Below, in pieces: positions 14,492 to 18,886 of a DNA stretch of 64,000 nt. Position 1 is the stretch's first letter. Every line of letters starts with the position of its first letter. The position numbers were made by a program, and so were the translations under genes. Source of the DNA: Actinomycetospora sp. NBRC 106378 (GTDB lineage: Bacteria; Actinomycetota; Actinomycetes; Mycobacteriales; Pseudonocardiaceae); NCBI RefSeq assembly GCF_030269685.1, contig NZ_BSTT01000005.1:186001-250000 (forward strand), given 5' to 3'. Under the pieces are notes generated by a model that did no database searches, had not been told where the DNA came from, and was given only the letters and a program-made list of their open reading frames with translations.

Positions 14492-15951
14492 CCACTGATT
14501 CGCCGGCGGGTCCGGGGGGCTCGTCGGTCTCCGGCACCGCGCCGAAGACGACGACGAAGGCCATCCTGGTCTCGATCGTCGCCGCCGTCGGCGGCTTCCT
14601 GTTCGGCTTCGACTCGAGCGTCATCAACGGCGCCGTCGACGCGCTGAACAACCAGTTCGGCCTCACGAACTCCCCGCTGCTCGCAGGCTTCACCGTCGCC
14701 TGTGCACTGCTCGGTTCGGCGGTCGGCGCGTGGTTCGCCGGGCCGGTCGCCGACCGGTACGGCCGTGTGCGCGTCATGCTCATCGCGGCGGCGCTGTTCG
14801 CGATCAGCTCGATCGGCTCCGGCCTGGCGTTCGCCGTCTGGGACCTGATCATCTGGCGCATCCTCGCCGGTGTCGGCATCGGCATCGCGTCGGTGATCGC
14901 GCCGGCCTACATCGCCGAGATCGCGCCCGCGCACATCCGCGGCCGGCTCGGCTCGCTGCAGCAGATGGCGATCGTGCTCGGCATCTTCGTCGCCCTGCTC
15001 TCCGACGCGCTGCTCGCCGGGGTCGCCGGCGGCGCGGCCAACGAGTTCTGGCTCGGCCTCGAGGCGTGGCGCTGGATGTTCATCGTCGGGATCATCCCGT
15101 CGGCCATCTACGCCGTGCTCGCCCTGCGCATCCCGGAGTCCCCGCGCTACCTGGTGGCGAAGGGGAGGCTGGAGGAGGCCGGACAGGTGCTGCACTCCGT
15201 CGAGGAGTCGCGGTCGATGGACTCCGTGCAGCGCAAGGTCACCGAGATCGCGGACTCGCTGCGCCGGGACGTGAAGCCGTCGCTGCGCGACCTCACCGGT
15301 CAGCGGTTCGGGCTCAAGCCGATCGTCTGGGTCGGCATCCTGCTGTCGGTCTTCCAGCAGTTCGTCGGCATCAACGTGATCTTCTACTACTCGACGACGC
15401 TGTGGCAGGCCGTCGGCTTCTCCGAGTCGCAGTCGTTCCTGGCCTCGGTGATCAACGGTCTGATCAACGTGCTCTCGACGATCGTCGCGATCCTCATCGT
15501 GGACCGGGTCGGCCGTCGTCCGATGCTGCTCGCGGGCTCCCTCGGGATGACGGTCACGCTGCTCGTCATGGCGATCTCGTTCTCGCAGGCCGTGCCGTCG
15601 GTGAGCGAGAGCGGTGAGTCCACCGTCGCCCTGCCGGGGGCCTGGGGCCCCATCGCGCTGGTCGCGGCGAACCTGTTCGTCGTGTCCTTCGCCATCACGT
15701 GGGGCCCGGTGGTCTGGGTGCTGCTCGGCGAGATGTTCCCGAACTACCTGCGCGCCGCCGCCCTCGCCGTCGCGGCCGCCGCGCAGTGGCTCGCGAACTT
15801 CCTCATCACCGTGACGTTCCAGTCGCTGGCCGACGTCGGACTGACGCTGGCCTACGGGCTCTACACCCTGTTCGCGCTGCTCAGCTTCGTCTTCGTCTAC
15901 AAGGCGGTGGCCGAGACGAAGGGCAAGGAGCTCGAGGAGATGGTCGCCTGA
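14488..15951 (+). CDS. MFS sugar porter
   Basis: 487 residues, 12 predicted helices. Sugar-porter signatures are clear: GGFLFGFDSSVINGA in TM1, GPVADRYGRVRVM between TM2 and TM3, PAYIAEIAPAHIRGRLGSLQQ, RIPESPRYLV before the central loop, FQQFVGINVIFYYS in TM7, DRVGRRPMLL, and a C-terminal VAETKGKELEEM. It probably imports hexose or disaccharide by proton symport. ATG at 14488 shares the ATGA overlap with glucokinase. Its last 55 bp are overlapped by the convergent sigma-recombinase fusion. Confidence 0.93.
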   Translation: MTTDSPAGPGGSSVSGTAPKTTTKAILVSIVAAVGGFLFGFDSSVINGAVDALNNQFGLTNSPLLAGFTVACALLGSAVGAWFAGPVADRYGRVRVMLIAAALFAISSIGSGLAFAVWDLIIWRILAGVGIGIASVIAPAYIAEIAPAHIRGRLGSLQQMAIVLGIFVALLSDALLAGVAGGAANEFWLGLEAWRWMFIVGIIPSAIYAVLALRIPESPRYLVAKGRLEEAGQVLHSVEESRSMDSVQRKVTEIADSLRRDVKPSLRDLTGQRFGLKPIVWVGILLSVFQQFVGINVIFYYSTTLWQAVGFSESQSFLASVINGLINVLSTIVAILIVDRVGRRPMLLAGSLGMTVTLLVMAISFSQAVPSVSESGESTVALPGAWGPIALVAANLFVVSFAITWGPVVWVLLGEMFPNYLRAAALAVAAAAQWLANFLITVTFQSLADVGLTLAYGLYTLFALLSFVFVYKAVAETKGKELEEMVA

Positions 15952-17816
15952 GCGCGCAGTGAGCGCAGGGTCGAGCCGCCGGAGGCCTGCTTGAACAGGT
16001 ACTCGGCGCGCTCGTAGGAGAGTCGGCGACGCCCGGTGAGCGGACAGAGGTCCCGCGCACCGGGCGTTCGCGTCGGTCCGGGCCGCCGGTCGGAGAGGAA
16101 GATCGGCCCGCGTGTCCGCGTCCCCACGAGGGCCCGCAGCAGTCCCGCGGTCGCGGGGGAGAAGCGGACCGGGCCGGCCCGGCGCCCGGCGAGGTCGAGG
16201 TCGTCGACGTCGAGCCCCAGCACCGCGGTGACGGTGGCACCGGAGTCGGCCAGGAGGGCCCACAGCGCCCGCTCGCGCAGGGCGCCGTCGGGAACCGTCG
16301 GGACGGGGACCGGCGGGCGGGCCGCCGGGGTGCGGCCCGGGATGGTGGCCCCGAGTCCGGGCCGACCCAGCCACGCCCCGAACGACCGGATCGCGGCCCG
16401 GTGTCGGTTCCAGGTGGCGGGGGACACCGCGTCCCACGTGGTCGTGACGACGACGCCGACGCGATCGGGGTCGAGGCCCGTGAGCGGCAGGGCGTCGCCG
16501 AGGGCGTCGACGAGACGGTGCAGGGTCTGGCCGTAGGACCGGCGCGAGGCGGGGGACAGGTCCTCGCGCGCGAGGAAGCGCTGCACGGCGGGTCCGAGGG
16601 TCGGGCCGGTGGCTGCGGCGGCCGCCAACGCGTCCGCGCGGCGCAGCAGCACCGCCCGCTCGGCGGCGTTCGCCGTGGACGCGGCCGCCCGCCGCCACTC
16701 GATGCGCGCCTCGGCGTCGCGGCCGAGCCGGCCGAGGAGGTCGGCCCGGACCGCGGGCAGCAGGTGGTAGTCCGGCAGGAGCCCCTCGTCCACGAGCGCG
16801 TCGACCTGGTCCAGGCCCGTCCGGGGCCCGTGCGCCCGCCCGTGGGCCACGGCGCGGTTCAGCCGGACGACGGGCGTGGGCAGGGTGGCCACGAGCAGGT
16901 CGTACAACGCGGCGACCTGGTCCCAGTCCGTGCCGTCCGGCCGGGCGTGCCCGACGGCGATCGCGGCCTGCAGCACGTACGGCCCCGGCGGGCCGTCCTG
17001 CACCTCGCGGGCGTGCAGCAGGGCCGTGAGGCCACGGCGGATCCCGGCGGCGTCCCACCGCGTCCGGTCCTGCTCGTCGAGCGGCACCGGCGCGCCGCTC
17101 CTGTCGGTGCGCGCGGCCGAGCGGGAGGCCTGCAGTTCCATCAGGGCCAGCAGGCCGTGCACCTCGGGCTCGTCCGGGGCGTGCCCGACGAGGAGCCGCC
17201 CGAGGCGCAGGGCCTCCTCGGTGAGGGCCGGGCGCAGGAGGTCGTCCCCGGCGGTCGCGGTGTAGCCCTCGTTGAAGACCAGGTAGACGACCTCGAGGAC
17301 GGATCCCAGGCGGTCGCCCGCCCGCGACGGCGGCTCGACGCCCAGCTCCGCGAGCCGTCGTCTCGCGTGCGCGATCCGGGCGACGACCTGCGGTTCGTGC
17401 AGCAGGAAGGCCCGGGCGATCTCGGCCGTGGAGAGCCCGGCGACCAGACGCAGGGTCATCGCGGTGCGCTCGTCGCGGGCGAGCGCGGGATGGCAGGTCA
17501 GCAGCACCAGGCGCAGGACGTCGTCCGGAGCCGCGGCGTCGGGCTCCGGGGCCGGGGACGTCCCGTCGTCGGGCAGCTCGGCGAGCCGCCCCGTGCGACG
17601 CAGGTGGTCGACGGCCCGGCGACGCGCGACCGTGGTCAGCCAGGCCGCCGGGGCGTCGGGGACCCCGGCCGTGGGCCACTGCTCGAGGGCGGCGACCAGC
17701 GCGTCCTGGGCGAGTTCCTCGGCGAGGCCGACGTCGCCGACCAGCCGGACCAGGCCCCCGACGATCGTCGCGGACTCGGCGCGCCAGACGGCGGCGGCGA
17801 CCTCCCCGGCGTCCAT
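15897..17816 (-). CDS. ECF sigma factor (ECF42/DUF6596 type) fused to a truncated tyrosine-recombinase domain
   Basis: 639 residues. Residues 1-about 402 are a complete ECF42-type sigma factor: sigma-2, sigma-4 (STAEIARAFLLHEPQVVARIAHARRRL), the DUF6596 segment with YLVFNEGYTATAG, and the helical TPR-like C-terminus. Residues about 403-622 resemble a tyrosine recombinase: SAM-like core binding (SPASRRSYGQTLHRLVDAL, WNRHRAAIRSFGAWL), then catalytic-domain segments (ALLADSGATVTAVLGLDVDDLDL, GPIFLSDRRPGP, RRRLSYERAEYLFKQ). The box I Arg is replaced (SGATVT), the HxLRH box reads TLRSLRAQ, and the Tyr region is absent, because the last about 18 codons are antisense to the MFS gene. So it cannot recombine DNA. 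TGATG coupling to the YciI gene matches known ECF42 partners. Confidence 0.82.
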   Translation of the reverse strand: MDAGEVAAAVWRAESATIVGGLVRLVGDVGLAEELAQDALVAALEQWPTAGVPDAPAAWLTTVARRRAVDHLRRTGRLAELPDDGTSPAPEPDAAAPDDVLRLVLLTCHPALARDERTAMTLRLVAGLSTAEIARAFLLHEPQVVARIAHARRRLAELGVEPPSRAGDRLGSVLEVVYLVFNEGYTATAGDDLLRPALTEEALRLGRLLVGHAPDEPEVHGLLALMELQASRSAARTDRSGAPVPLDEQDRTRWDAAGIRRGLTALLHAREVQDGPPGPYVLQAAIAVGHARPDGTDWDQVAALYDLLVATLPTPVVRLNRAVAHGRAHGPRTGLDQVDALVDEGLLPDYHLLPAVRADLLGRLGRDAEARIEWRRAAASTANAAERAVLLRRADALAAAAATGPTLGPAVQRFLAREDLSPASRRSYGQTLHRLVDALGDALPLTGLDPDRVGVVVTTTWDAVSPATWNRHRAAIRSFGAWLGRPGLGATIPGRTPAARPPVPVPTVPDGALRERALWALLADSGATVTAVLGLDVDDLDLAGRRAGPVRFSPATAGLLRALVGTRTRGPIFLSDRRPGPTRTPGARDLCPLTGRRRLSYERAEYLFKQASGGSTLRSLRAQATISSSSLPFVSATAL

Positions 17817-18139
17817 CAGGGCGTGAAGACCTGGTGGATCGTCGACTGCCCGTCGCCGACGATGGCGCGGAAGCGCCGGGCGAACTCCATCGCCTCGTCC
17901 CAGGTCGGGGCGTCGATGATCGCGAAGCCGAGGACGGCCTCCTTGGCCTCGACGAACGGGCCGTCGGTGACGGTGACCTCGTCGCCGGCCGTCTCCATCC
18001 GCCGGGCGCCGGGGGCGAGGCCGCCGGTGAGGACGAGATGGCCGGCCGTGGTCATCTCCTCGATGAACGCGCCCATCTCGGCGAAGAGGGCGTCGTCGGG
18101 GCGGCGGCTGTTCTCGCCGGTCGTCATGAGGAAGCGCAT
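17816..18139 (-). CDS. YciI-like (DGPF domain) protein
   Basis: 107 residues from the ATG at 18139, behind GGGAGA. The family core is present: RFLMTTGENS start, LTGGLAP, VTDGPFVEAKEAVLGFAIID (the DGPF motif) and a ferredoxin-like fold ending in STIHQVFTP. Genes of this family typically sit next to ECF42 sigma factors and are thought to act with them in an unknown signalling role. Stop and sigma start share TGATG. A longer reading to 18223 would enter the palindrome at 18191-18226. Confidence 0.85.
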   Translation of the reverse strand: MRFLMTTGENSRRPDDALFAEMGAFIEEMTTAGHLVLTGGLAPGARRMETAGDEVTVTDGPFVEAKEAVLGFAIIDAPTWDEAMEFARRFRAIVGDGQSTIHQVFTP

Positions 18140-18190
18140 CGGATTCTCCCGGGGGTGGTGCGGCTCGGTCGTCATGACGTCGGCTCGGTC

Positions 18191-18226
18191 GATGTGACAG
18201 GGAATGTAGCCGTTCCCTGTCACATC
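18191..18226. repeat. 36-bp perfect inverted repeat between divergent YciI and DUF998 genes
   Basis: Arms GATGTGACAGGGAA (18191-18204) and TTCCCTGTCACATC (18213-18226) are exact reverse complements around the 8-nt centre TGTAGCCG. Each arm holds TGTGACA and GGGAA. The position between divergent genes suggests an operator, possibly for a factor controlling the sigma operon; a cruciform or RNA hairpin is also possible. Confidence 0.6.
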
Positions 18227-18271
18227 GTGTCGTGCGACGTCCTGCCGACAGCCCGATCCGAGGAGGACGCC

Positions 18272-18886
18272 ATGACCGCCACGCTCACCACCCGCTCCGC
18301 CACGCCGACGACGACGGCCACCACCACCCGCCGCCTGCTGCTCGCCGGGGCGATCGCTTCCCCGCTGTGGGGCACGGTCGCCCTCGCCCAGGCCGCGCTC
18401 CGGTCGGACTTCGACTTCACCGTCGAGCCGCTCTCGGCGCTGTCGACGGGCTCACTGGGCTGGTTGCAGATCACGAACTTCGTCGTCGGCGGACTCCTCA
18501 CCGTCGCCGGCGCCCGAGGTCTCGGTCGCACGGTCTCCCGCGCCGTCGGGCGGTCGTGGGCGGTGAGCGGCCTCGGGCTCGTCGCGGCCGGCGCCCTCGT
18601 GCTCGACGCCCCCGGCAGCGGCACGCTGACCTGGCACGGGGCCGGCCACCTGCTGGCGGGCACGGTGTCGTTCGCCGCCCTCGCCGTCACCTGCGTCCTG
18701 CTCGCCGGGCACGTCCGTCGGGCGGGGCGACGCGGGGCCGCCGTGGTCTCGGTCCTGGCGGCCGTGAGCGTCGTTGCCGGCAACGCGTGGGCGATGACCG
18801 GCGGCGCGTACGGCTCGATGACGCTGGGGTTCGGCGTCCTCGCGGCGATGCTGTGGGTGTCCGGGGTGTGCGCTGCGCGCAGGTGA
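18272..18886 (+). CDS. DUF998 family membrane protein
   Basis: 204 residues with about six hydrophobic helices and the DUF998 pattern: LAGAIASPLWGTVALAQ, then DFDFTVEPLSALSTGSLGWLQITNFVVGGLL, LDAPGSGTLTWHGAGHLLAGTVSF. The function of this family is unknown. ATG at 18272 has an excellent AGGAGG. Divergent from the YciI/sigma operon across the 36-bp palindrome, so it may belong to the same regulon. Confidence 0.85.
   Translation: MTATLTTRSATPTTTATTTRRLLLAGAIASPLWGTVALAQAALRSDFDFTVEPLSALSTGSLGWLQITNFVVGGLLTVAGARGLGRTVSRAVGRSWAVSGLGLVAAGALVLDAPGSGTLTWHGAGHLLAGTVSFAALAVTCVLLAGHVRRAGRRGAAVVSVLAAVSVVAGNAWAMTGGAYGSMTLGFGVLAAMLWVSGVCAARR

Follow-up and report, generated by a model that had tools for sequence, protein, structure and literature searches.

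The 64,000-nucleotide stretch of the Actinomycetospora sp. NBRC 106378 genome analysed here (the window; contig NZ_BSTT01000005.1, positions 186,001 to 250,000, with coordinates below counted from its first letter) encodes on its minus strand, at 15897..17816, a 639-aa open reading frame (ORF) in which an ECF42 sigma factor continues in frame into a C-terminal module derived from a tyrosine recombinase. Bacterial RNA polymerase normally selects its promoters through sigma2 and sigma4. Comparison with relatives shows that the window protein belongs to a conserved ECF42 sub-clade, in which the captured recombinase module probably reads a DNA arm and, as we predict, has taken over recognition of the −35 element. 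If this is true, nature has evolved a sigma factor that owes its promoter choice to a borrowed recombinase DNA-binding module, with the intermediates still alive, and the question of how a sigma factor swaps its −35 reader becomes directly testable.

An ECF42 sigma factor fused to a truncated tyrosine recombinase

The Pfam domains of the protein are Sigma70_r2 (residues 19–77), Sigma70_r4_2 (104–155), DUF6596 (169–269, E 6.7e-37) and Phage_int_SAM_1 (417–485), the last found with E 9.9e-6 in the full protein and 2.3e-6 when the C-terminal part is searched alone. They and the 639-aa ORF agree with the initial annotation of this region as an ECF42-type sigma factor in frame with a dead, truncated tyrosine recombinase. 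The sigma2 and sigma4 core spans residues 1–165 (17322..17816, minus strand, as for all parts of the gene), as delimited by Pfam, helix comparison and alignment to solved ECF sigma factors, and is followed by the DUF6596/TPR-type ECF42 extension at residues 166–400 (16617..17321), which is mostly helical in the model. The protein has the full ECF42 domain set (sigma2, sigma4 and DUF6596/TPR), and in the sigma trees described below the fused proteins branch among unfused DUF6596 sigma factors. The recombinase-derived module, at about residues 403–622 (15951..16610), consists of a core-binding domain and a remnant of the catalytic domain that extends to box II. A short tail of low confidence comes last (residues 623–639 and the stop codon, 15897..15950), antisense to the 3' end of a major facilitator superfamily (MFS) gene; the MFS ORF ends at 15951 and the final 18 codons of the fused gene, stop included, are antisense to this end. 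Homology to recombinases had been proposed to reach about residue 622 and does end there, while the ORF itself runs to 639 aa. The full-length AlphaFold model has a mean predicted local distance difference test score (pLDDT) of 90.2 and a predicted template modelling score (pTM) of 0.79, with residues 625–639 below pLDDT 50.

All 73 aligned modules match Phage_int_SAM_1. The PHROG 'integrase' profile matches the C-terminal part (E 6e-4), NCBIfam gives XerC, XerD and a recombinase subfamily at E 0.002–0.021, far below their cut-offs, and a PDB sequence search with the C-terminal part returned weak unrelated matches only. Modelled alone, the module reaches pLDDT 88.5, and tyrosine recombinases are its top structural matches in the PDB (XerA, the Tn1549 integrase, XerD and lambda integrase), in line with the first assignment of this half. 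The template modelling (TM) scores are modest (0.3–0.5), which a shift between the two sub-domains and the shortened catalytic domain probably explain; for the core-binding part by itself the TM-score is 0.66, normalised by target (3nrw).

What remains of the active site? An active tyrosine recombinase has the catalytic set R-K-H-R-H/W-Y. In an alignment of the 73 fused modules with 25 standalone relatives, the box I Arg is absent from 71 fused modules (loci L082 and L136 have one), the hairpin Lys column is gapped in 66, the box II His is retained in 7, and in all 73 the box III column is empty and there is no Tyr at the Tyr column. The standalone relatives, unlike the fused modules, keep the box I Arg in 25/25, the box II His in 21/25 and the Tyr in 16/25 cases. 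In the 102 proteins measured (without L052, which has RHSY instead of RLSY and ends TLRQLRP) the ORF ends 1–22 residues past box II, with a median of 5, and as it stops so soon, neither box III nor the catalytic Tyr is encoded. Relics of box II can be seen in L119 (TLHQLRHARPR), L129 (TLHQLSHSRR) and L147 (TLHQLGRSAL). The core-binding and catalytic-domain fold is present, the catalytic domain is truncated and catalysis is dead. Replacement of the box I Arg and loss of the HxLRH and Tyr regions had been recognised correctly at the outset; the MFS gene, to which the loss was ascribed, is not its cause, because in relatives with different neighbouring genes the fold breaks off at the same position. 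Invariant in the 73 modules are the core-binding WNRH and the named positions of TGRxRLSYERAE.

The closest standalone relatives found are orphan actinobacterial Xer-like recombinases (L062, L067, L077 and others), which share RLSYxRAExLF-type and TLHQLRHSA segments with the fused module; none of the 17 that were tested for a sigma fusion is fused. A separate observation concerns four standalone recombinase relatives of 248–253 aa (L064, L065, L186 and L187, family f13) that also end just past box II and represent a second truncation of the same fold, without sigma fusion.

Conservation and origin of the fusion

The fusion is conserved across genera and families and has a shared end point. A whole-protein search of 61 genomes gave 12 matches over both parts at 61–100% identity, the window's own included, one of them in a genome of another family. 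Eleven relatives align over the full length at 60–88% identity with continuous ORFs, and none of them has a stop codon or frameshift near residue 402, the junction at which such a break would have spoken against the fusion. With module profile A2, fused matches were found in 45 of 297 genomes of the family, 16 of 397 of the order and 2 of 396 of the phylum (window genome counted); these were called by score and ORF length and confirmed where loci were fetched, and in one of the 16 order genomes, G494, the ORF is short and its sigma match weak. A scan of named genomes confirmed 158 relatives, the best 80 of which were analysed: sigma factor and module stand together at all 80 loci, with the ORF uninterrupted in 77 and broken in L088, L106 and L111. 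The genera with the fusion include Actinomycetospora, Streptomyces, Kitasatospora, Saccharopolyspora and Amycolatopsis, and further Nocardiopsis, Nonomuraea, Streptosporangium, Actinoplanes and Embleya. Purifying selection acts on the module: its ratio of nonsynonymous to synonymous substitution rates (dN/dS) is 0.24–0.42, versus 0.14–0.41 for sigma2–4 over the same 10 Actinomycetospora pairs. Six plasmid records (H1–H6) carry the module, and at four of them the gene is annotated plainly as a sigma factor; the module is found on large Streptomyces and Embleya plasmids.

The module tree, built from 26 of the 73 fused and 22 of the 25 standalone modules, groups the fused modules apart from the standalone ones with a support of 92. 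The first sigma tree (42 fused and 28 unfused proteins) places 41 of the 42 fused proteins in one starred clade, leaving L059 outside, and a constraint holding all 42 together had a higher likelihood and was not rejected (approximately unbiased (AU) test, p-AU 0.643). In the second sigma tree (38 fused and 19 unfused proteins) L059, L115, L142, L135 and L148 form a basal fused clade, with modest support for L059. These trees point to one main origin of the fusion. Sigma comparisons were made without the broken ORFs L088, L106 and L111 and without L057; comparison A3 additionally left out L126, L139, L151 and L154, and A4 those and L125.

An inverted repeat shared by the fused loci

Directly upstream of the fused gene lies a YCII-domain (DGPF-type) gene (17816..18142, minus strand; Pfam YCII E 5.3e-12), whose stop codon overlaps the sigma start codon as TGATG. 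A YCII/DGPF gene in the operon is a trait of the ECF42 group; a YCII homologue precedes the fused gene in 89 of 92 loci and lies near the unfused ECF42 sigma gene in 24 of the 28 loci checked. About 50 nucleotides before YCII the window has a 13-8-13 inverted repeat, ATGTGACAGGGAA-TGTAGCCG-TTCCCTGTCACAT (18192..18225, no strand assigned), the arms of which extend to 15 bp (18190–18227). Core sites of tyrosine recombinases are built from inverted arms of 11–13 bp around a centre of 6–8 bp, and the ATGTGACAGGGAA-N8-TTCCCTGTCACAT layout in the window has this recombinase-core-like format. Nine nucleotides past its arm there is on either side a −10-like element, CGACG for the YCII-sigma promoter (18178..18182, minus strand) and CGACGT for a divergent promoter (18235..18240, plus strand); the divergent DUF998 gene (18272..18886, plus strand; Pfam DUF998 E 2.2e-22) is the predicted co-target. 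Since CGACG typically follows each arm after 8–10 nucleotides, in the arm's own direction, the palindrome resembles two back-to-back promoters.

This DNA element is shared among the fused loci and co-occurs with the fusion. An inverted-repeat score of at least 10 upstream of YCII was obtained at 60 of 84 fused loci, in 58 of which it is the arm repeat (L143 and L149 have unrelated ones), and at 1 of 24 unfused ECF42 operons, where the repeat is unrelated. Both arms match in at least 10 of 13 positions at 63 of 84 fused loci; with spacers of 6–11 sought, the spacer is 8 in 49 of them, 9 in 11 and 10 in 3, and the common spacing of 8–9 bp suggests pairing of two modules. Other fused loci keep a single arm only. 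When single arms with at least 11 of 13 matches are counted, 84 of 94 fused loci have one versus 1 of 59 unfused loci; eight of the ten remaining fused loci had cut flanks and their arm was found by other searches, and no arm was shown at L104 (where no YCII was found) and L106 (the broken ORF) among the fused loci searched. Near standalone recombinases the best arm match over 27 loci is 11/13 (L062 and L063). The core pattern GACAGGGAAN{7,10}TTCCCTGTC occurs in 29 of the 45 fused versus none of the 252 other genomes of the family, with zero hits for the reversed control. It gives 30 sites in total, one each in 28 genomes and two in G198, and 29 of the 30 are within 3.5 kb of a module match. 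The second G198 site (L282, G198:C1:10704000-10708000) comes with an arm pair, YCII, DUF998 and a short partial sigma match, and no module.

Counted by genomes rather than loci, half-site promoter matches are found in 40 of 42 fused genomes. In G132 the sole match is off the operon, and an extra match elsewhere occurs in G002, G006, G156, G210 and G249; the apparent extra site in G249 (L283) was rejected, as it leads to a 23-codon ORF with no clear target. Of 83 fused loci, 63 have a divergent DUF998 homologue; it is missing from 8 of the 12 that lack the left arm versus 12 of the 71 that have it. It follows from this link that the single arm is probably the working unit.

Changes in sigma4 of the main fused clade

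The canonical −35 element of ECF42 promoters is of the TGTCGA type, and TGTCGA-N16-18-CGWC is found at 24 of 68 unfused ECF42 loci. The window and the main fused clade lack this −35 and have RTTCCC-N17-CGAC within the arm instead. The base before the arm together with TTCCC would thereby occupy the −35 place, 17 nucleotides before CGAC, and the outer arm TGTCACAT would run into the spacer. What happened to the part of sigma4 that normally reads this element? The comparison took in 386 columns (residues 5–395) of 97 main-clade and 68 unfused proteins. The main fused clade is on average more conserved than the unfused set, and among 105 columns near-invariant in unfused proteins only 143 and 150 turned variable in it. 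Position 150, which is Arg in 68/68 unfused proteins, ranks first of the 386 columns for gained variability and position 143 second (5.0 and 4.2 standard deviations above the mean); in the recognition helix of the window protein they are His and Gln, respectively. In an alignment to solved ECF sigma factors, 150 and 143 correspond to R176 and T169 of sigmaE type, which are described as contacting G-35 and G-34 of the −35 element (PMC6713349, in part), while the column matching R173 stays fixed. The 13-bp arm is nearly invariant in the main clade, and sigma4 is unlikely to be its reader because a variable reader ill fits a near-invariant site. The module, on the other hand, is invariant at the segments where recombinases would be expected to grip DNA.

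Basal fused members as possible intermediates

Arg150 is retained by all five basal fused members. In four (L115, L142, L135 and L148) the nearer arm lies 28–30 nucleotides upstream of a (T/G)GTCGA-N17-CGA(C/T) promoter; two arms are found there in direct orientation, the farther one being degenerate in L115 and L142. In L135 and L148 the tandem arms, 27 and 17 nucleotides apart from start to start, stand before the canonical ECF42 promoter. Since the basal members have Arg150 and an arm upstream, the arm follows the module and not the sigma4 helix. Promoter typing of 82 loci gave 62 arm-only loci without Arg150 and 3 with it, and 4 canonical-only loci, all with Arg150; a further 8 fit both loose rules (1 with Arg150) and 5 fit neither (1 with Arg150).

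Proposed mechanism and alternatives

We propose that an ECF42 sub-clade acquired its module from an orphan (Xer-like) tyrosine recombinase of actinobacteria by taking over the DNA-binding part, and that the captured module shed its catalytic residues and all that lies past box II and was retained as a DNA reader. It would bind the 13-bp half-site TTCCCTGTCACAT, usually present as a palindromic pair, before its own YCII-sigma operon and the divergent DUF998 gene. In the basal members the half-site would act from upstream, next to an ordinary ECF42 promoter that sigma4 reads, whereas in the main clade, including the window, it would have replaced the −35, with sigma2 still reading the −10 CGACG and the base-reading residues of sigma4 no longer needed. 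We infer from the sequence comparisons that the module binds the arm and that this binding activates rather than represses; the palindrome would hold two paired modules, and a signal may be sensed by the TPR part or by YCII. The most detailed form of this model stands, in our opinion, somewhat better than an even chance: reading of the −35 would be outsourced to the module on a lox/dif-like 13-bp arm, sigma2 would read and melt the −10, two sigma factors would pair on the divergent core site, and living intermediates would record the steps, with module, upstream arm and intact sigma4 at first, and then the arm at −35 and a relaxed sigma4. If the proposal is true, it provides a model from nature for building sigma factors that use long promoters of high specificity, and it predicts a minimal regulon, the own operon and DUF998, for a branch of ECF42 whose role is unknown.

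Several observations weigh against this proposal. L059, which lies outside the fused clade in the first sigma tree, has an ancestral-type sigma4 helix (Arg150), but its arm is near the −35 and it shows neither TGTCGA nor a clear CGAC, and in the second sigma tree one unfused sequence on a very long branch, L244, lies within the fused group. Arg150 has been kept by 5 of the 97 main-clade proteins, of which 3 belong to the 65 arm-only loci. Half-site promoter matches exist also in 4 of 38 unfused genomes, and the arm spacing is not absolute, being about 4, 12 and 16 nucleotides in L119, L114 and L156. L112, L127 and L131 (L121 partly) keep only the divergent-facing arm, directly beside the YCII start, an arrangement that the promoter model fails to explain. 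The arm overlaps the −35, so that sigma4 and the module could not occupy it together in the usual manner. Finally, the Fisher value for the association of promoter type with Arg150 overstates independence, because the contrast between basal and derived members amounts to about one transition in the tree.

Could the module be a repressor? On the palindrome it might repress or gate its own operon, with sigma4 keeping a weak −35 contact. A recombinase-fold repressor, MrpR, is documented (PMC10516654, in part), SroF is another, to which the module has a weak structural match, the site overlaps the predicted promoter, and at some loci the arm is directly beside the YCII start. We nevertheless regard autorepression as unlikely, as it leaves unexplained both the relaxed reading residues of sigma4 and the association of the divergent gene with the left arm.

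Reading of the arm by sigma4 itself, as a new −35 (TTCCC...), with the module contacting RNA polymerase, a partner protein or similar, is also doubtful. The inner edge of the arm is 17 nucleotides before CGAC, the proper place for a −35, and the sigma4 helix did change in the arm-using clade. However, 143 and 150 vary freely over a nearly invariant arm, the four basal Arg150 members have the (T/G)GTCGA promoter in addition to the upstream arm, and it is the presumed DNA-binding segments that are the invariant part of the module.

A third, unlinked regulator could in principle bind the arms while the fusion hitch-hikes, and co-occurrence alone cannot name the binder. This is very improbable, since among the 297 family genomes perfect core palindromes occur in fused genomes only, 29 of 30 at the fused operon, and the recurring genes of the locus are YCII, the fused sigma factor and DUF998. 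The last codons of the window gene are antisense to the MFS gene, as might be expected of a functionless recombination scar (an option left in the initial annotation) or of read-through, and we reject both in view of the architecture and end point conserved across genera and families, the dN/dS values indicating purifying selection and the confidently predicted fold. The other option given there, a new DNA-binding module that steers the sigma factor, is the one favoured by the conservation, the purifying selection and the specific DNA element.

Relation to known systems

Described ECF42 members include Sven_0747, Sven_4377 and Sven_7131 of Streptomyces venezuelae and ECF-10 of Pseudomonas putida (PMC8999054, in part). 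The window fusion resembles ECF42 sigma factors in sigma2, sigma4, the TPR-type extension and the adjacent YCII gene; it differs from them in the additional 220-residue module of the fused clade and, in the main clade, in the arm that stands in place of TGTCGA and in the loss of Arg150 from most members. The ECF42 accounts, as excerpted from PMC8999054 and PMC8103513, describe the TPR extension only. A C-terminal domain of SnoaL type is fused to the sigma factor in ECF41 and ECF56 and may affect promoter binding; in the part of the source consulted SnoaL_2 is described as having no direct DNA binding (PMC7730460), in contrast to the module here, which derives from a DNA-binding enzyme.

MrpR of the SPbeta prophage has the tyrosine-recombinase fold, has lost recombinase function and is a DNA-binding repressor; unlike the fused module, it is free-standing and keeps the whole catalytic-domain fold and the Tyr (Y304), as far as the excerpted source goes (PMC10516654). 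SroF of phi3T, solved on DNA (9rd5), is a weak structural match to the module (rank 20, E 0.21). Both are free-standing phage repressors, whereas the fused fold stops at box II and sits inside a sigma factor. We recognised no description of a sigma-recombinase fusion in the literature searched, the coverage of which was partial and does not establish absence from print. In the window genome (G000, contigs C1, C2, C3 and C5) the fused protein has 7 matches, and among the 4 listed the window's own is the only one that spans the module.

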